This document shows positions 2,282 to 22,704 of a stretch of 39,011 nt of DNA, one piece after another. The position numbers and the translations under genes are program-made. The stretch comes from Candidatus Martarchaeota archaeon (GTDB lineage: Archaea; Micrarchaeota; Micrarchaeia; Micrarchaeales; Micrarchaeaceae). The notes below the pieces were generated by a model. The model did not search any database. It was not told the origin of the DNA and was given only the letters and a program-made list of their open reading frames with translations. Each line of letters opens with the position of its first letter. The stretch's first letter is position 1. The DNA lies in the NCBI GenBank assembly GCA_023473255.1, contig JAMCYW010000033.1, forward strand, positions 1 to 39,011. Direction: 5' to 3'.

Positions 2282-5200
2282 TCAGCAGCTGTTCTCTATT
2301 GTTATATCCTGCGAATACGTGCCTGAAGGCGCGCCTCCAGGTATGCCAACACCGAAGTATATGCTGTTGCTCGAGCCCGAAGAAACCAGTATGGATGTGT
2401 TGTATGCCACGGGCGAAAGCCTGTTGGCAGGGAAGGCAACGCCAGCAGTCGGAGCCCAAGTAGTGTTGCTAACGCCAAAGCTTTGCGGCCCTATCCAGTT
2501 GCCCCCATAAACAAGCATGTATGCATTCGCGTTGCCTATATTATTGTCTGTTACTGAATAGGTTGTTGCAGTATTGCTGCCCGCATACATGCTGCGAAAT
2601 TCTATTGAATTCGGCGCAAGTGATATGGTGCACGCTTTTACCGAGGCAAATGTTATTGCAGTCGCATTTCCTGCACTCAAATACCCAGTAGAAGGGCTTG
2701 GTACATAAGTTGTACCGCTAACTATCTGGTTTGCAACTGTAAATAGGTAATTGCCAGGCAGGGTTGAAAACGAGATTGTGTTTGTCGACGAGGAGTTTAG
2801 CACATTATTATATATCACATTCCATGTAGTTGAGCTTGGCAATCCGCTCTCAGTGAACGTGCTTATGCCATTCCACGTTGCGGTTAATATTCCGTTGCCC
2901 GTAGCAGTTATTATAGTGTTCTGGGAAATTGCATTGCTTATTGTTATATTGGCGTTCGATGCCGTCCATCCATCGAAGACAAAATTCGATGATGCTGGGG
3001 CTATTGCATTTGCAGTAGTCTGTCCTATAAGTATTACATCGCTGCGATCAGATGAGGAGGTACCATTTATCACCATAGAAGCTGTTGAAGGCACATCGTC
3101 CAGATTTACATAGTTTGGAGGGAATATGTATGCACCTATTTCTGCCTTGCCAGCAGCGTTCGATACTGTTACGCTAGCAGTGTAAGAGCCTGCAGCAAGA
3201 GAGGTGCACACTGCCACATATGCAGATTCATAAGTATCTGCACCTGTCACTTTTTCCAGTTTTTTGCAGCCCGATGGTATTACAGGCGCGCCGGAAAAGC
3301 CATAATCTCCTGCGCTTATCATTATAGCAACAAGCGATCCCGGCTCAGTAACATTAAACGTAAGGGAAACCGAACCTTTGCCAGTTGAATCCTGGAGCGT
3401 ATACGTTGTATCATTTATGCCAAATATTGCCTCCGCTAGATCTGGATTGCTTGTTGTTTCTGTGCACCCGTTTACCGTCTGGTGGCCTATGTATGCATAA
3501 TCTCCTGCAGCATATTGGTCAACAGTGCCTGACGTATATGTTACAGCCCCATTGCCTGCGCCACCTGCACATAAATAAAAGGCGTACGTTGAAGAAGTAG
3601 ATACAGTAAGGGGCGAGGTAGTGCTTATTCCTGCATTGGCCGCATAATTTGCTATCGTTTTCGGCGGCGGAGGTTCTATGCTGAATGATTTTATTATATT
3701 CGCACTTGTATAGTTGCCGTTGCCCTGCGTTTCAGCAGTTACTACATAATTGCCTATTTCTGGGCCGACCTGCACGCTAGTCTGCGTGTTTGAAGTGGCA
3801 ACCAGCGCATTGTTAACATATAGGTCCAAAGGAAGCTGATTGTCATACGTTAATATATTTGCAGTAACTGTTGCCGTGTTGCCGTTGTAGAAGAAACTTG
3901 AAGGGAAGTTCGGCAGGGATATTGCTGGTGACGCCTTGGAAACGGTTAAATCAACTGTTGTAGACTCGAGGGTGTTTGTATCTAGGGCGTTAAGCGTATA
4001 CGTATCTACAGAAACGACAGGAAAGGCATAGCTCAGAGAGCTTTCTGTAGGCCCTGCAACTATGTTTGATGGCCCGAAGATGCCTCCCGATACATTAAGT
4101 TCTATATAGTCTGATGATGGTATGGCGTTTGCAGTAACTAAATCAGTATTGCCATATGCTTCTGGGTTCTTGCTTACCAGCAATGCTGGTTTTCCTTCAA
4201 GTGTGAAATTTATGTTGGTTATCTTGCCTGTCGAGGCGCTGCCTGAATTCGGAACTGGCACATATTTGTTTCCATTTATTATCTGATTCGATATGCTAAA
4301 CTGATATGTACCCGGAGCATTAACAAAGCTTATTGTATTAGCCGAAGAGCTTGCCAGCGCTCCATCATATATGACATTCCAGGTGAATGGCGCAGGCAAC
4401 CCGGTTTCAAGGAAAGTGGAGGTTTCATTTTCCCACGTTGCTGTTACCGTTCCGTTGCCTATTACAGTTAGAGTTGTGCTAGGGTCTAATGCGTTTGCGA
4501 CCGTGAGATTTAAGGAATTGCTGGAGAGCCATGAGTTGAACACCCAGTTGCCAGTTGATGGTAGGTTGGCAGTTATTGCATTGGTGCCTATGACCTGCAT
4601 AGCTTGGCCATTTGCATATGTATTGCCGTTGGTAGTTATTGTTGCTGTTGACGGATTGTCATCTAGAATAACATTTCCCGGCGGGAATACATAAGCTGCC
4701 ACGGCCATCGAAGTATCTGTAGTGTTGGCGTCGCTTGCGTCGACTATGTAATTACCGACCAACTGATTTTGGCAGACGCCAACAAAGGAATTGCTGTAAT
4801 TGCCGTAATATGTATTTGATGTGCATCCGGTTGGCGGGGTTACGGATTCGCCACCGGTATAACCTCCACCCTCCATTATCACGGTAAACGAGTTTGACGT
4901 AGTAACACTGTATGATAAAGATACACTGCCGGTATCTTCAGCAGAGGCAGTGTACAGCTTGTATTTAGTTGCATTTACTCCTATACCTGCAATAGTCATT
5001 CCATAGTAAGCAGCATTTGCCATTGTTGCGGTGCATGTGTTGCTTGTCTGATGCCCGACAGATGCATTTACTAAGTCGCTGCTAAATGCTATCCCCGGGG
5101 GCGCATTAACGTCGCTAGTCCAGGATGGTGCAGGAGTGGAGTTTATGGATACTGAAGCTCCAGCACTGCATAGATATAACTTATATCCGCTAGGTAAAGG

Positions 5201-6703
5201 AACACTTACGGTTAGAGAACTGCCGGAATTGCTGTGCGCTCCATCTTGAGTATACGAAACTAAGTAAGTGGATAGAGAGTCGGACAATGCACTGAAGTAA
5301 TATTCTGTAGAGTTGGAGCCAGTCAATGATGTTTGCAGTGGCACCCAAGTCTCATTTGCAACAATATATTTGTATAAAGTTATTTGTTGCGGGAACAGTC
5401 CTGCATTATTTATCCATGTCTTGCTAACAGAAAAATTGTACTCTGCGCCAATCACCTCAGAATCGCTCAAGGTACTATTCACTATGAACTCCAGATATGC
5501 TTGCTTTTTGAAGTTATGCACATGCACAGGATTAAGCACGAGCGATACATTTGTAGTCAATGCATTCTCGTTTTTAGCTGACTCCACCACTATGCTAGAG
5601 AGCATAGTTTTTGGGTTTACTAACAGCGGCGACCTAGCGTATTGCGGCATTAATGAAGAATAAGAAACGATAGTATTGCCTATGATTGCAGAATATAAAT
5701 TAGTCTCTACAGTTCTTGTAGAGATAATTCCTTGCGTAGTATTCTCATATGCAAGTATAACATTTTCGGCAAAAACGCTCTTTGCATCATTGAAGATCTC
5801 AATCCCTTTAGGCAAAGGGATTTTGTTTATGTCGCTGATATTGGTATGATTTGCATATGCTGCTTCGACAATGCTAAATATGCCAGGGATGGTCTTTTTT
5901 GGCCTGTTTTGGGTCACATTATCTAACTGCTTCTTGAGTTTGCTTATTAATACCTGATAGTTTTGCATTCCGGCAGCTATACTGCTGTCATTCAAGATGG
6001 TTGTGTTAGATGCATTGATGAGAATATTTGTTATTTTCTCTGGTTTGGCAGTATAATTAATGCTCTTTGCTATTTTTACATCTGATGAATCAGTTACTAT
6101 TACATTTGCGATGAAGTTGCCTGCGCCAAATGTGTTGCTCTGGTTGAAAGAGAAGGTGTTAGACGATAAGCTGCTTAAGTATATCGCATTTGCTATCACA
6201 GATCCAGTGCCATTATAAATTGAGTAATCGTATGCAAACGGAGCAGCTCCGCCCTTTACATTAACAGTTATACTTTGCTCCTGCCCTATCATTATGCTGT
6301 TGAACTTCAGAAGCGTGCTGTTGAACGATAACATAGGAGTAACATTAAACAGGACATTCTGCGACACTGTTTGATTGGAAACAGAATTGCTCTGTAATGA
6401 CACGTTCGCATAGAACTGCCCGGCACTCAATGCGTTCCAGCCAAATGTTGCGCTGCCATTGGTCGTATAAATCGAAGTAGAGTTAATAATGGAACCTGAT
6501 TTGTTTATTATGTTGAAGGTATAGCTGCTAGGCACTCCACCGATGGCGTTCGCTGTAATTGTCTCCGTATGCCCCACGTCTATCTGGCTATGCCCTACAG
6601 ACAAGCCCAGCGAAAGAGCGCCGGCAAAGGCTATGAACATAGAGAATAATACAACAAATCCAAAAGCTGCCGGGGCATTTAGCAATGCTGAATTTTTATT
6701 CAT
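2282..6703 (-). CDS. Very large secreted surface protein (~1,473 aa) with Ig-like repeats, a PGF-pre-PGF-like domain, two ~330-aa duplicated modules and a C-terminal module ending in ENSC
   Basis: Signal peptide-like MNKNSALLNAPAAFGFVVLFSMFIAFAGALS; many N-x-S/T sequons; internal repeats visible in translation. ATG at 6703 preferred over the ORF start at 6775. Confidence 0.85.
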   Translation of the reverse strand: MNKNSALLNAPAAFGFVVLFSMFIAFAGALSLGLSVGHSQIDVGHTETITANAIGGVPSSYTFNIINKSGSIINSTSIYTTNGSATFGWNALSAGQFYANVSLQSNSVSNQTVSQNVLFNVTPMLSFNSTLLKFNSIMIGQEQSITVNVKGGAAPFAYDYSIYNGTGSVIANAIYLSSLSSNTFSFNQSNTFGAGNFIANVIVTDSSDVKIAKSINYTAKPEKITNILINASNTTILNDSSIAAGMQNYQVLISKLKKQLDNVTQNRPKKTIPGIFSIVEAAYANHTNISDINKIPLPKGIEIFNDAKSVFAENVILAYENTTQGIISTRTVETNLYSAIIGNTIVSYSSLMPQYARSPLLVNPKTMLSSIVVESAKNENALTTNVSLVLNPVHVHNFKKQAYLEFIVNSTLSDSEVIGAEYNFSVSKTWINNAGLFPQQITLYKYIVANETWVPLQTSLTGSNSTEYYFSALSDSLSTYLVSYTQDGAHSNSGSSLTVSVPLPSGYKLYLCSAGASVSINSTPAPSWTSDVNAPPGIAFSSDLVNASVGHQTSNTCTATMANAAYYGMTIAGIGVNATKYKLYTASAEDTGSVSLSYSVTTSNSFTVIMEGGGYTGGESVTPPTGCTSNTYYGNYSNSFVGVCQNQLVGNYIVDASDANTTDTSMAVAAYVFPPGNVILDDNPSTATITTNGNTYANGQAMQVIGTNAITANLPSTGNWVFNSWLSSNSLNLTVANALDPSTTLTVIGNGTVTATWENETSTFLETGLPAPFTWNVIYDGALASSSANTISFVNAPGTYQFSISNQIINGNKYVPVPNSGSASTGKITNINFTLEGKPALLVSKNPEAYGNTDLVTANAIPSSDYIELNVSGGIFGPSNIVAGPTESSLSYAFPVVSVDTYTLNALDTNTLESTTVDLTVSKASPAISLPNFPSSFFYNGNTATVTANILTYDNQLPLDLYVNNALVATSNTQTSVQVGPEIGNYVVTAETQGNGNYTSANIIKSFSIEPPPPKTIANYAANAGISTTSPLTVSTSSTYAFYLCAGGAGNGAVTYTSGTVDQYAAGDYAYIGHQTVNGCTETTSNPDLAEAIFGINDTTYTLQDSTGKGSVSLTFNVTEPGSLVAIMISAGDYGFSGAPVIPSGCKKLEKVTGADTYESAYVAVCTSLAAGSYTASVTVSNAAGKAEIGAYIFPPNYVNLDDVPSTASMVINGTSSSDRSDVILIGQTTANAIAPASSNFVFDGWTASNANITISNAISQNTIITATGNGILTATWNGISTFTESGLPSSTTWNVIYNNVLNSSSTNTISFSTLPGNYLFTVANQIVSGTTYVPSPSTGYLSAGNATAITFASVKACTISLAPNSIEFRSMYAGSNTATTYSVTDNNIGNANAYMLVYGGNWIGPQSFGVSNTTWAPTAGVAFPANRLSPVAYNTSILVSSGSSNSIYFGVGIPGGAPSGTYSQDITIENSC
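2642..3583 (-). repeat. Internal duplicated module copy 2 of the giant surface protein (FYLCAGGAG...IFPPNYVNLDDVPSTA...TFTESGLPSSTTWNVIYNN...ITFAS)
   Basis: As for copy 1; conserved cysteine positions YLC, xxC, GC, VC in both copies. Confidence 0.85.
4193..5185 (-). repeat. Internal duplicated module copy 1 of the giant surface protein (YKLYLCSAGA...VFPPGNVILDDNPSTA...TFLETGLPAPFTWNVIYDG...NFTLEG)
   Basis: Aligns by eye with copy 2: YLC...IGHQT..., FPPxxVxLDDxPSTA, TFxExGLPxxxTWNVIY, PGxYxFxxxNQIxxGxxYVPxP. Confidence 0.85.
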
Positions 6704-6861
6704 GCTTTCAGTTGTGTATTTAACACCAAAGGATAAATAAATATCGCAATGCTTATTTGATGCAGAAGATTGCATGATTTGGAAGCATGCTTGCAGAATT
6801 CAGGCGCATACAAAATCTTTTAGCCGTTTATTACCATTTAAAAGCAGGCAGTGTGAGCTTT

Positions 6862-8958
6862 ATGCGCATATTGTATTATACAGCATTGGCATGTATACTG
6901 ACGTCATTAGCGATAGTTGCACTGCCGTATTTTTATGCATCGCCTTTGCCCAATTCGACATCGCTCGCGGCTAGCGTAAGCGTGGCATGCCCGTTCTACC
7001 TAAAATTTAATATACCGCCCTCGTATATACGCGGATTTAATGCAATTTTCAACTATACTGCCTACCCGCTGGAGAACTGCAGCCTGCCTTCTGCGTCAGG
7101 TTACTTCCAAGCAGTCAACAGCAGCGGCAACATTTCTATCAACAATAGCATAAGCAGCGTGTCTATAACGAACTCAATAAGAAATCACAACGTATCAATC
7201 GGAAATCTGACGCTTCCCAGAGGGCTATATACTGCACATATAAATCTTGATGATATCAGCACAAATTCCAGCAGTCAGGAATTTGCCGTGCTGCTACCTC
7301 CAGACATTATAATCATGGCGCATTTGATAAACCCTATAAACCAATATTCCATACAAACTGTATATATTAACTATACAAACATAGGGAATTTAACGGCTTT
7401 GAATGCATCGCTAAATGTGCACATAACTGGCCCAGTAAATCTGACATTGGATCGCAGCGTTGGCAATATAAGCACGAGCTCAGAGAATATATCCATAACG
7501 CTGCCGCAGAATGCAACCTCAAAACTAGGCGCTTATGCCCTAGAGGTCAATTTTACATACACCTTGCAAGGAAAGATATACCACTCTGCAAATTCACCTC
7601 TGCAATATACAGTTGTAGCGCCTCCAGTTTCTACCAAGCCTAGGGGTGCACCAATATCTAGCATAGTAACTCCAGTATATCCAATACCGTCGCTTAGTTT
7701 CACGTCAATGCCATTATACCTGACATTGCTGCAGGGAGGCTCGGCAACTTCATCAATAAGCTTGCTTAATACTGGCAACCTCGCTGAAATACTGAACATA
7801 AGCATCCCAAGGCAATTCTCCAGCATGTTAACCCTTTCATCAACCAACGTCACTCTGGCCCCCCACCAGAGCCTCAGCGACAGCATGTACCTGAATGTAA
7901 ATTCCACCCTTCCTGCATCTACATACATAATTCCGATAATGATAAACATAACTGCGCCATCTGGGCTAACAAGCACATACAAGGAATTCATTACATTAGA
8001 TGTTGCAGCTTCTGCGCCAGGCGAGCCTAGCGCTGACAGCCAGCTATATCTTGAGAACAACACGCATACCGCATACGGCATAGCGGAAATAACAGCGCCC
8101 AGCAATACGCAGCTTGATAACGCCACTATAGATACCATTATACCGATATATGCAACAAACAGCATGCAGAACATAAACGCATACGGCCTGCCAAACAAGA
8201 TCATAACGACCAACGCAGGATACGAAATACAGTGGTCGGTAAGCCATCTGCCTGAAGGGGAAAGCACATATGGGTACTACGGAATAAGAAGCGTAACGAA
8301 CCCACAGGCTCTTATGGCTGCTGAGCAATCCGTATCTTTTTACAGCCCTTCCGTTCAGCCTAAGTTCCTGAACGTGCTCTCAATCGATGTGCCGACTTTC
8401 TACGCCAATTCCATAAATAACATAACAGTCAATGTGCTTTATACTGGCAGCGCAGCGCAGGATGTCAGCTTGAGCTTATCTGGCCCCATAACTCAGAGAT
8501 TGGAGAACCCGAACGTACTGATAAACGCAACCCCCAACCAGGTGATAAGCTCGAACTTCCACATAAAGACGGGCAACTTCACAGGCACGCTGCTTCTTTA
8601 CCTGCATATATCGACTTTTGGAGAGAGCCTGAACTATTCATTGCCTGCGTTGGTCATGCCATTATCGACGAATGCAGCAAAGCCTCCGACCCATGCACCA
8701 ACTACCACATATGCAGTATTTAAAGGTTTTATTTCATATATAAATGCAAATATACACATGATTGCATATGCAGCTGCCATAATAGTTGTAATTGTTGCTT
8801 TGGCTGCTGCATCCAAGCGCTCGCATAAGAGGTACATGCAGAGATATAGCAAAGAGAGGGCAAAGCAGCTCGTAGAATTGCGCGAGCACATAAAAAGAGG
8901 TTATGACAGTGAAACCGTATATAATAAGAATCGCATCGCAAAAAGGAGGCGTGGGTAA
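6862..8958 (+). CDS. Membrane-anchored surface protein with NEW3-like beta domains, C-terminal TM and basic cytoplasmic tail
   Basis: N-terminal TM MRILYYTALACILTSLAIVALPYF; PLYLTLLQGGSATSSISLLNTGNLAEILNISI resembles NPCBM-associated/NEW3 domains; C-terminal TM AYAAAIIVVIVALAAA then KRSHKRYMQRYSKERAKQ...NRIAKRRRG. TATA-like ccatttaaaag at ~6835 fits leaderless initiation at 6862. Confidence 0.8.
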   Translation: MRILYYTALACILTSLAIVALPYFYASPLPNSTSLAASVSVACPFYLKFNIPPSYIRGFNAIFNYTAYPLENCSLPSASGYFQAVNSSGNISINNSISSVSITNSIRNHNVSIGNLTLPRGLYTAHINLDDISTNSSSQEFAVLLPPDIIIMAHLINPINQYSIQTVYINYTNIGNLTALNASLNVHITGPVNLTLDRSVGNISTSSENISITLPQNATSKLGAYALEVNFTYTLQGKIYHSANSPLQYTVVAPPVSTKPRGAPISSIVTPVYPIPSLSFTSMPLYLTLLQGGSATSSISLLNTGNLAEILNISIPRQFSSMLTLSSTNVTLAPHQSLSDSMYLNVNSTLPASTYIIPIMINITAPSGLTSTYKEFITLDVAASAPGEPSADSQLYLENNTHTAYGIAEITAPSNTQLDNATIDTIIPIYATNSMQNINAYGLPNKIITTNAGYEIQWSVSHLPEGESTYGYYGIRSVTNPQALMAAEQSVSFYSPSVQPKFLNVLSIDVPTFYANSINNITVNVLYTGSAAQDVSLSLSGPITQRLENPNVLINATPNQVISSNFHIKTGNFTGTLLLYLHISTFGESLNYSLPALVMPLSTNAAKPPTHAPTTTYAVFKGFISYINANIHMIAYAAAIIVVIVALAAASKRSHKRYMQRYSKERAKQLVELREHIKRGYDSETVYNKNRIAKRRRG

Positions 8959-9694
8959 GACAACCATAGCCGTAAACCTATCTGTAACGTTGGCGCAGAG
9001 GGGCTACGACGTCCTACTTGTAGATGCGGACACAACAAACCCTTCATGCGGCTTCCATTTGGGAATGGAAAATGCAAACAGGTGCTATCACGATGTGATA
9101 AAGAAAGGGTCTAACATAAAAGATGCGATAGGCATACATGCGCCAAGCGGCGTACATGTGCTCAACGGCAGGATAGATGCAATGCCGTTCGTAATATCAT
9201 ATGCAGAAGCTAAGCGATTTATAGCCTCTGCGTCTAAGCTTGCATACGATTTCATAATTCTGGATACACAACCTGGTTTCTACGATCCTGAGATAGTGGA
9301 ACTGGCAGATGAAGCGCTATTTATCACTACTCCGGACATGCCGAGTTGCAGCAGCGCAATAAAACTTTCAATCGAAGCTAACAACAGAAGGATCAAACAT
9401 ACGCTGCTCGTGAACAGGGCGCAGGGAAAGCGCTACGAGCTAAATGGGCGCGAGATTGCGAATATGTACGAGGGCAGAGTACTGGGCAAACTGCCAGAGG
9501 ATCCCATAGTACAGGAGGGCATAGCTTCGCAGATACCTGCGGCGCTCAACAAGAAGAAATCCCCATTCATCAAGGCGATCAGCACGCTCGCAGATACGTA
9601 CGTGCTCAACAAGCCCTCAAAAGAGCAGAGCCCTAGGCGCGGCGGCGTGCTGTCCATATTCAGGCGCAGAAATAAGGCAGTTAGAGATGCATGA
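8903..9694 (+). CDS. MinD/ParA-family P-loop ATPase with basic amphipathic-like C-terminus
   Basis: Deviant Walker A SQKGGVGKTTIAVNLS, VDADTTNPS, FIILDTQPGF; C-terminal RRGGVLSIFRRRNKAVRDA resembles a MinD membrane-targeting sequence. Confidence 0.92.
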   Translation: MTVKPYIIRIASQKGGVGKTTIAVNLSVTLAQRGYDVLLVDADTTNPSCGFHLGMENANRCYHDVIKKGSNIKDAIGIHAPSGVHVLNGRIDAMPFVISYAEAKRFIASASKLAYDFIILDTQPGFYDPEIVELADEALFITTPDMPSCSSAIKLSIEANNRRIKHTLLVNRAQGKRYELNGREIANMYEGRVLGKLPEDPIVQEGIASQIPAALNKKKSPFIKAISTLADTYVLNKPSKEQSPRRGGVLSIFRRRNKAVRDA

Positions 9695-9730
9695 AGCGAA
9701 TAACTTCCTAACTTTGCATTTTTAAGAACC

Positions 9731-9740
9731 TATTTAAATG
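9731..9740 (+). promoter_or_regulatory. Archaeal TATA box (tatttaaatg) upstream of the two-module secreted protein
   Basis: Sits 38-47 nt upstream of the ATG at 9778, which also has a purine-rich gaggaga leader. Confidence 0.6.
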
Positions 9741-9777
9741 TTCTTTACTTAATACACATTGTTCTGAGGAGACCACC

Positions 9778-10767
9778 ATGAAAGCAAAATTTTTCATAAC
9801 GTTAGGATTATTATTGGCAGTTCTGGCGACAATAGCTACATTTGGAATTTACATAGAGACGGCTAACGCTTCATCCAACAATAGCATAATAACTGCAAAC
9901 GTTGCAGTAGGCAACGTGATATACCTTAGTGTAGCTGCACAAGGAGGCAACACCATAAACTTCGGCAGTCTATTTACGCTTGACTCATATTATACTGACC
10001 TTCCCGTAACTGACACAGATAGCGGAGGCAACATAGGCGCCAACATACTGGTCTCAGGCACTTCGTGGGCGCTCACCTCAAATACGGCTGTGACGTTCTC
10101 TGTTGGCAACACCCTCTGGAACCCTACCTCTTTAACTTCATATGCTGGCAATGCACTCACAACCTCGTTCGTCAACACAAACGACATAATAGTTGCGCCT
10201 ACCCTTAGCAACCCTACAACGAGCAACAACATATACTTCGGTTTGTACATACCAGCAGGCACTGCGCCTGGAAACTATGTACAGACAATATCGTTTGAGG
10301 ATTACAATGCATCGCAGAACATATACAACAGCATTACTGCGAGCGGTAACGCCATTACTGCAATGGCAGATGTCCAGGGCACATGCTATATCGCATTAAG
10401 CACGAACACAATAAGCTTTGGATCCATTGTTTCAAATGCAGACGTCCCGACGAACGTTCTCGTCACTGATACGGATAATGGAGGAAACGTAGCATCGTCA
10501 TTGCTTGTAGAAGGAAACGACTGGACACAGACTTCAAACTCCCTTACTACCTTTGGGGTGGGCAATACGAAGTGGGATGCAACATCACAAGGCTCATACG
10601 CGGGCACTGCATTAACCAACAGCTTATTCACTACGGGCATATCAATAGCTGCTCCGAATACATTAGATACAACAACGAGCAACAACATATACTTCGGTTT
10701 GTACATACCAGGAGGAACACCCGCAGGCACGTATTCGCAGGATATAACGATAGAGAATAGCTGTTAA
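9778..10767 (+). CDS. Secreted protein with two tandem beta modules, the second ending GTYSQDITIENSC
   Basis: Signal peptide-like N-terminus MKAKFFITLGLLLAVLATIATFGIYIETANA; two repeats with shared TTSNNIYFGLYIP(A/G)GT motifs; C-terminus matches that of the giant surface protein. Confidence 0.85.
   Translation: MKAKFFITLGLLLAVLATIATFGIYIETANASSNNSIITANVAVGNVIYLSVAAQGGNTINFGSLFTLDSYYTDLPVTDTDSGGNIGANILVSGTSWALTSNTAVTFSVGNTLWNPTSLTSYAGNALTTSFVNTNDIIVAPTLSNPTTSNNIYFGLYIPAGTAPGNYVQTISFEDYNASQNIYNSITASGNAITAMADVQGTCYIALSTNTISFGSIVSNADVPTNVLVTDTDNGGNVASSLLVEGNDWTQTSNSLTTFGVGNTKWDATSQGSYAGTALTNSLFTTGISIAAPNTLDTTTSNNIYFGLYIPGGTPAGTYSQDITIENSC
10216..10255 (+). repeat. 40-bp exact direct repeat, copy 1 (acaacgagcaacaacatatacttcggtttgtacataccag)
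   Basis: Identical to 10672-10711; encodes the TTSNNIYFGLYIP motif. Confidence 0.95.
10672..10711 (+). repeat. 40-bp exact direct repeat, copy 2
   Basis: Identical to 10216-10255. Confidence 0.95.
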
Positions 10768-10775
10768 GTGTTGCG

Positions 10776-11495
10776 ATGAATGCCAGATACCTGCTATTGG
10801 CGATTTTTTCTTTGTTCATCGTGTCTGGCACATTAGCATACGCGCAGCTTGGCGAACAGGCAGGCCAGCCGTTTTTCAACATAAGCGTGGGAAGCAGCAG
10901 CACGTTCAACTACTCAATACTCAATTCTGGATCTGCACCTATAGGCTATAGCGTCGTACTTCCTACGCTCAACACAATACCCAACAATGCAACGCCAACA
11001 GTCGCGGTAACCCCTATGAATGGCACGCTTGCGCCGGATTCTCAGCAGGTTATAAGCATAAGAGCGAGCATTCCTTCTAGCGACAAGCCATATCTTAAAT
11101 GGCAGGGCGTCCTGTCGATAGTAGAAACGGCCCCGGCAGCCAATGTTACTGGAGGTGCCGGAGCGATAATAAGGGAAGGAGTCGCAAAGATAGTGACCAT
11201 AGAATCTGCCCCGCCCAAGGGCGTGCCTTTGATTTATTATATCATAGTTGTACTTGCCATAGTGATAGTTGCGGTTGCCGCAACATACGCAATGATCGCA
11301 AGGAAGAAGTCGCGCATGGCTGCAAAGAAGAGAGCCAATGCTGCCAAGATCAAGGCTAAACTGAAGAAGCGCGCACCTGCACGCACAAGAAAGGCAGTTA
11401 GAAAGAAGCCTGCAAAGGGCACAAGGGCGCGCAGCAGAAAGAAAAGCACTAAGAAAAGGACGACTTCTGCATCGCGCAAGAGGGCGAGGCGCTGA
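10776..11495 (+). CDS. Single-pass membrane protein with extracellular beta-like domain and 64-aa Lys/Arg-rich histone-H1-like cytoplasmic tail
   Basis: Signal/TM MNARYLLLAIFSLFIVSGTLAYA; TM VPLIYYIIVVLAIVIVAVAATYAMIA; tail RKKSRMAAKKRANAAKIKAKLKKRAPARTRKAVRKKPAKGTRARSRKKSTKKRTTSASRKRARR. Starts 8 nt after the previous stop. Confidence 0.85.
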   Translation: MNARYLLLAIFSLFIVSGTLAYAQLGEQAGQPFFNISVGSSSTFNYSILNSGSAPIGYSVVLPTLNTIPNNATPTVAVTPMNGTLAPDSQQVISIRASIPSSDKPYLKWQGVLSIVETAPAANVTGGAGAIIREGVAKIVTIESAPPKGVPLIYYIIVVLAIVIVAVAATYAMIARKKSRMAAKKRANAAKIKAKLKKRAPARTRKAVRKKPAKGTRARSRKKSTKKRTTSASRKRARR

Positions 11496-21414: not shown

Positions 21415-21483
21415 AAATGGATGCATCTTTTGGAATGCGTGCAATAGAATAGATTTTTAATTTATGGCATGGTAAAATAATTG

Positions 21484-22704
21484 ATGACAGAACGCGTACT
21501 TATACTGGCAGTCGACATAGACAACGACCTCTACCGCAAGACAAGGATAACTGGCCCGGTAATCGGCAGGAGCGCCAACCTTAAAGCGGCGGCTAAACTC
21601 GTATTTGCAGACCCCCAGGATTCAGACGGCAACACCATGTTTGAAGCGGTGAGGAAATACGACGAACTGAAGAAGATGGATTATGCCGTAGGCATAGCCA
21701 CGATAACGGGCGCGGAAAACGAGGGGTATGTGGCTGATGCCGAGCTTTCGAGGCAGCTTGATAGGGTGCTGGATACGTTCAAGGCAGATTCGTGCGTGCT
21801 AGTCACCGATGGCGCAAGCGACAACAGGGTACTCCCCATATTGAAGACAAGAGTAAAGGTAAATAGCGTAGACATATTGAGGATGAAGCAGGCTGAGGAG
21901 TTCGAAAACACATATTTCACAATACTTGAAAAGCTCAAAGAGCCGCATTATGCAAGGATAGTATTTGGCATACCTGCCATACTGCTGCTGCTCTTCGCAA
22001 TAAGTTATTATCTGAATTTCGGATGGCAGCTGCCCGTTGCCATAATAGGCATATATCTGATAATAAAAGGATTCGGGCTTGAAGACGCATTGATGTCGTC
22101 TTTCCAGGGATTCGGCTTCAGCGTGCGCAGGTCAAGTTTCGTGCTTTACATAAGCTCCATACTTTTCTTCGTCATAAGCATCATACTTGGGTATGGGTAT
22201 TATGCACATGCGCTTGCCACGACAAACAATATTATAACGCTTTCGGCATCCGCGATTGAAGGATTCCTGCTCATATTCCCGATAAGCCTTGTGCTCTATT
22301 TCATAGGCAGGATAATGGATCTTGAAAACAGGCATATGCGGTTCAGGGCCATAAGCCAAGGGTCGTACGTCGGCTACATAATAATAGGGTTGGCCCTGCT
22401 CTACACGGCAGCTGCATGGTTCATAGGGCAGCTGTATTTTTGGGAGTTTCTGGTGCTTAGCGCGGCAGCCATAATGCTGGGTTATTTTGTATCATACATA
22501 AGCCTTGTGCTCAAGAAGCGCGCCATAGAGAAGGTAAATTTGAAGGACAAAAATGTCATAAACGACATTGGAGCATACATAGGAAAGATAACCAACGTAG
22601 ATACGAAGGGCGGCGTAATGATGATAAGGACAGACTACGGGCGCGTAATAAAATTCGATATAGACAGGATAACAAGCGTGTCAGACCGCGTCATAGTCAG
22701 ATAG
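21484..22704 (+). CDS. DUF373 family membrane protein
   Basis: TERVLILAVDIDNDLYRKTRITGPVIGRSANLKAAAKLVFADPQDSDGNTMFEAVRKYDEL followed by multiple TM helices. Confidence 0.92.
   Translation: MTERVLILAVDIDNDLYRKTRITGPVIGRSANLKAAAKLVFADPQDSDGNTMFEAVRKYDELKKMDYAVGIATITGAENEGYVADAELSRQLDRVLDTFKADSCVLVTDGASDNRVLPILKTRVKVNSVDILRMKQAEEFENTYFTILEKLKEPHYARIVFGIPAILLLLFAISYYLNFGWQLPVAIIGIYLIIKGFGLEDALMSSFQGFGFSVRRSSFVLYISSILFFVISIILGYGYYAHALATTNNIITLSASAIEGFLLIFPISLVLYFIGRIMDLENRHMRFRAISQGSYVGYIIIGLALLYTAAAWFIGQLYFWEFLVLSAAAIMLGYFVSYISLVLKKRAIEKVNLKDKNVINDIGAYIGKITNVDTKGGVMMIRTDYGRVIKFDIDRITSVSDRVIVR

Follow-up and report, generated by a model that had tools for sequence, protein, structure and literature searches.

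The stretch of DNA analysed here (the window, 39,011 nucleotides) is contig 22 of a source genome of 618 kb that is 83% complete, and among named relatives the closest is Candidatus Micrarchaeota DX2.bin12, whose MinD protein is 82% identical. Five genes make up the set under study, namely a giant secreted protein, the membrane protein M1, a MinD-type ATPase, the secreted protein sec and the membrane protein M2. Open reading frames were assigned simply by taking the longest first, and transmembrane (TM) segments were taken from hydropathy, in genomes that are incomplete. The features are as follows.

2282..6703, minus strand: giant secreted protein of about 1473 aa, with signal peptide, PGF-pre-PGF domain, repeats and a sec-like C-terminal module; divergent from M1
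6862..8958, plus strand: M1, a secreted Ig-like rod with a C-terminal TM and a short cytoplasmic tail
8836..8898, plus strand: conserved motif in the cytoplasmic tail of M1 (residues 684-704, counted on the ORF starting at 6787)
8903..9694, plus strand: MinD-type ATPase with a deviant Walker A (SQKGGVGKTT) and a basic C-terminus
9731..9739, plus strand: TATA-like stretch tatttaaat ahead of sec, read by eye from the sequence
9778..10767, plus strand: sec, secreted, with two related modules
10776..11495, plus strand: M2, with a small ectodomain, a C-terminal TM and a polycationic cytoplasmic tail

The original prediction had placed an ATPase between two single-pass membrane proteins with a secreted protein ahead of the second, and all of these parts were recovered where it had put them. 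The M1 reading frame opens at 6787; since Met26 (nucleotide 6862) is invariant in 24 homologues, 6862-8958 is the likely M1 gene. The frame of the giant protein spans 6775-2282 on the minus strand, with a start at 6703 more likely than one at 6775. The end of M1 and the start of MinD share 56 nt, an overlap found unchanged in the nearest relative (L059, in which M1 runs to 739 and MinD starts at 684); sec and M2 are separated by 8 nt. A promoter and terminator scan with sigma-70 patterns, which are not apt for archaea, gave nothing clearly above chance in the window. We found no description of the cluster in the literature searched, from which subscription journals were mostly absent.

The predicted divergent giant protein sharing a C-terminal module with sec was borne out by an alignment of the two modules (44% identity, E 9e-18). 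The PGF-pre-PGF domain of the giant scored above cut-off, and sec was its only match elsewhere in its own genome. In relatives, homologues of the giant are encoded downstream of MinD. The AlphaFold model of sec reached a mean pLDDT of 50 and returned no significant Foldseek matches, and a sequence search of the PDB with M1, sec and M2 as queries gave no meaningful match. The model of the M1 ectodomain is of good confidence (mean pLDDT 78.6) and beta-rich, with beta sandwiches arranged as a rod; CARDB and NEW3-like matches were obtained in M1 relatives, and Foldseek with M1 retrieved generic Ig rods only.

Analysis of the ATPase places it, by its sequence, in the ParA/MinD superfamily, as it carries a deviant Walker A with the conserved signature lysine. 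K14, GGVGK at 15-19, T21 and D121 are invariant across 27 sequences, and the Pfam families CbiA and ParA both match above cut-off. The closest profiles and structures are those of archaeal MinD (TIGR01969; Haloferax MinD2 and MinD4), which share the deviant Walker A. In contrast to that family, however, the MinD of the window scores 140.8 bits against TIGR01969, below the cut-off of 201.75, and has fixed operon partners that include an extracellular giant. In Haloferax, MinD4 and MinD2 position surface machinery (PMC11588486). The C-terminus of the ATPase had been described as basic and amphipathic-looking; the first holds, but the tail of the window's own protein is no more amphipathic than its shuffles (p 0.40). 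Taken as a family, these tails exceed those of other proteins, to some degree in amphipathic character and clearly in basic charge. No ParB was found in the source genome (G000, 83% complete) or in 57 of 60 relatives, which makes chromosome partition of the ParABS type a weak reading.

The layout of the pair also resembles that of CapA/CapB, in which a membrane adaptor with a short cytoplasmic tail adjoins a P-loop ATPase, so that M1 could be an adaptor activating a BY-kinase-like tyrosine kinase. Profile matches of the MinD to CapB and Wzc, as well as a tyrosine conserved in 20 of 24 M1 motifs, agree with such a pair. The C-terminus of the ATPase nevertheless lacks a tyrosine cluster (one tyrosine in the last 35 residues, and a family median of one), no Wzz domain turned up when 24 M1 proteins were compared with Pfam, and the signature lysine of the MinD-type Walker A is invariant. 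On these grounds the kinase reading was set aside as very improbable.

To follow the cluster through relatives, MinD was searched in 60 of them, a search then widened with a profile to 295 Micrarchaeia genomes, and M1 was searched in 295 genomes of the class and 301 of the phylum. Among 111 M1 matches in the 295 Micrarchaeia genomes, at least 84 are followed immediately by a MinD gene of the same strand, with a median gap of 23.5 nt. This count is a lower bound because, for several M1 matches initially classed as unlinked, an adjacent MinD of weaker score came to light. M1 and MinD occur together in 89 genomes, M1 alone in seven and MinD alone in 16, counts which, like those of adjacency, include matches down to a chosen score and leave weaker ones uncounted. 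In most of the complete gene maps M1-MinD is followed by a giant secreted protein and, beyond it, by sec and M2. In more distant families (including those of L112, L113, L115 and L116) M1-MinD comes last, preceded in turn by a secreted protein that is large or unread, a small secreted one and a lipoprotein. A sec or giant homologue lies no more than six genes away from 55 of 83 M1-linked MinDs and from none of 20 truly unlinked ones (Fisher p 1.6e-8), the latter being what is left of 22 MinDs classed as unlinked once two linked loci cut by a stretch edge are removed. In a quick tree of 111 MinDs, which has several long branches, the unlinked label needs three changes against a shuffled mean of 21, and linked and unlinked proteins are strongly grouped. 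The M1-linked MinD keeps the same kinds of partner across the class, and the synteny goes beyond what chance would give. Neither outcome named beforehand as telling against the original prediction (absent synteny, or a MinD that regularly keeps other partners) was observed. The cluster, which occurs in dozens of species, is real and conserved, in its gene set as in the M1 motif described below.

Across the phylum, 96 of the 301 genomes have an M1 at E < 1e-20, a patchy presence, and the single-contig genome G032 carries three M1-MinD loci (L034, L070 and L168). Giant-type and M1 sequence are joined in one chain beside M1-MinD at L066/L198 and at L068; at L198 (G059:C5) the adjoining ORF is of about 5655 aa, part of which matches M1. 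A rival reading of the cluster is a coat. SlaA/SlaB S-layers consist of a giant secreted sheet protein and a stalk with a C-terminal TM, an architecture that a giant secreted protein with TM-anchored Ig rods would match, and the giant, M1 and M2 could thus be an S-layer or adhesin coat for which MinD serves growth or turnover rather than position. Unlike SlaA/SlaB, the cluster includes a MinD and a pair of membrane proteins whose cytoplasmic tails are conserved. The S-layer of Candidatus Micrarchaeum harzensis lacks a known mode of anchoring (PMC8975820). An accessory structure, however, would account better than a housekeeping coat for the patchy presence and for as many as three copies in one genome (G032), and we regard the coat reading as unlikely.

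Both membrane proteins had been credited with strongly basic cytoplasmic tails. The claim is correct for M2, while the tail of M1 is less basic and carries a conserved motif instead. In 24 aligned M1 proteins the motif is a charged stretch of 21 residues, roughly [RK]x[RK]Yxx[DE]R[AS]xxLxx[IL][RK]ExIKR. The strict pattern was found in 41 of 81 M1 tails as compared to 4.7 expected from shuffles and to seven of 105 other tails. A score matrix built from the 24 aligned rows was then applied to other tails. The 64 held-out MinD-adjacent tails reached a median of 16.5 bits versus -21 for 109 unrelated tails (p about 1e-26), the held-out tails being separated by sequence and not by ancestry. Eight M1s whose MinD lies elsewhere in the genome had a median of -2 bits. 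The motif is absent from five M1s whose genomes lack this MinD (median -33 bits). This is a small set, drawn from three genomes of which two are less than 80% complete; it includes some short tails, and its related sequences are not independent. It is also weak or divergent in several distant families (L117, L162, L164 and L187). The loss of the motif where MinD is missing is the strongest pointer, hinting that the motif serves the ATPase. Of the predicted role of the tails as ATPase partners that position a surface structure, the M1 part is the one that gains support: conservation of its tail motif, and the lack of that motif in genomes without the ATPase, make surface positioning the best-supported reading for M1.

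The M2 tail of the window contains 33 K/R and no D/E in 71 residues. Over 44 M2 proteins the tails have a median of 56 residues, 42% K/R, a net charge of +26 and almost no acidic residues, and are more basic than the tails of other proteins with one or two TM segments. M2 directly follows sec in most relatives, and because the two genes also adjoin in genomes without this MinD (L099, L100), sec-M2 is a module of its own. A polycationic tail of this kind could bind nucleic acid and tether the envelope to the nucleoid, or to ribosomes, with the contact regulated by MinD; a basic extension on the MinD of G037 would fit the same idea. The predicted link between envelope and nucleoid has the composition of the M2 tail as its one foothold, several relatives have short M2 tails, acidic lipids or other polyanions would suit the tail equally well, and the missing ParB again speaks against it. 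We judge a tether to be quite improbable.

Taken as a whole, the data make it somewhat probable that the cluster encodes a ParA/MinD positioning system with M1 as its membrane partner and an extracellular surface structure as its cargo. Conservation and linkage suggest a partner role as the most likely one for M1, while synteny and the fused chains suggest cargo as the most likely role of giant and sec. In the proposed mechanism, MinD would bind ATP, dimerise and sit on the inner face of the membrane, as family knowledge and the tail pattern would have it. Partners of ParA/MinD ATPases act via charged terminal peptides (PMC10241942), and the M1 motif may be such a peptide, comparable to those by which ParB, MinE and McdB act on ParA/MinD dimers, because it is conserved and lost where the ATPase is absent. 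Unlike in the ParB, MinE and McdB systems, which likewise pair an ATPase with a partner bearing a charged terminal peptide (PMC10241942), the candidate peptide of M1 lies at the C-terminus, after a TM, in a protein whose ectodomain is large. The extracellular Ig rod of M1 would hold or anchor the giant and sec subunits, a role suggested by synteny and by the single chains joining giant-type sequence to an M1 domain. M2 would anchor sec, judging from their constant adjacency, and may add a second, polycationic cytoplasmic contact. Membrane cycling of MinD could then set the position or spacing of the surface structure, or restrict it, for example at sites of contact between symbiont and host. 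The dynamics, namely binding, ATPase cycling and the place of the cargo, are what we infer by analogy. Against positioning stand the 16 genomes with MinD and no M1, the patchy presence and a MinD tail that in the window is not clearly amphipathic. A composite machine, in which MinD patterns the extracellular structure through a transmembrane partner and the M2 tail couples the same structure to nucleoid or ribosomes, seems to us a rather slim prospect.

Positioning ATPases are otherwise known for intracellular cargo or membrane machines, and if positioning holds, the pairing of MinD with a giant would extend them to the outer surface. Micrarchaeota are tiny symbiotic archaea attached to host cells, and the cluster would give a handle on their surface organisation. 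The M1 motif, as a short defined peptide, makes the positioning idea testable with purified parts.

MinD paralogues unlinked to M1 form a separate clade (L046, L047, L050, L073, L074 and L131:10517-11317). One region (L052, G059:C40:36000-50000) holds six MinD paralogues near one another and no M1. In a single case (L134:5743-7128) one uninterrupted ORF of 461 aa comprises MinD, a TM and a sec domain, being either an in-frame fusion or the result of a lost stop. Elsewhere in the window, a protein with Schlafen/AlbA_2 and RecG-type HATPase_c_4 domains is encoded upstream of the giant (288-1787), and positions 21481-22704 give a strong match to DUF373, a protein of unknown function.
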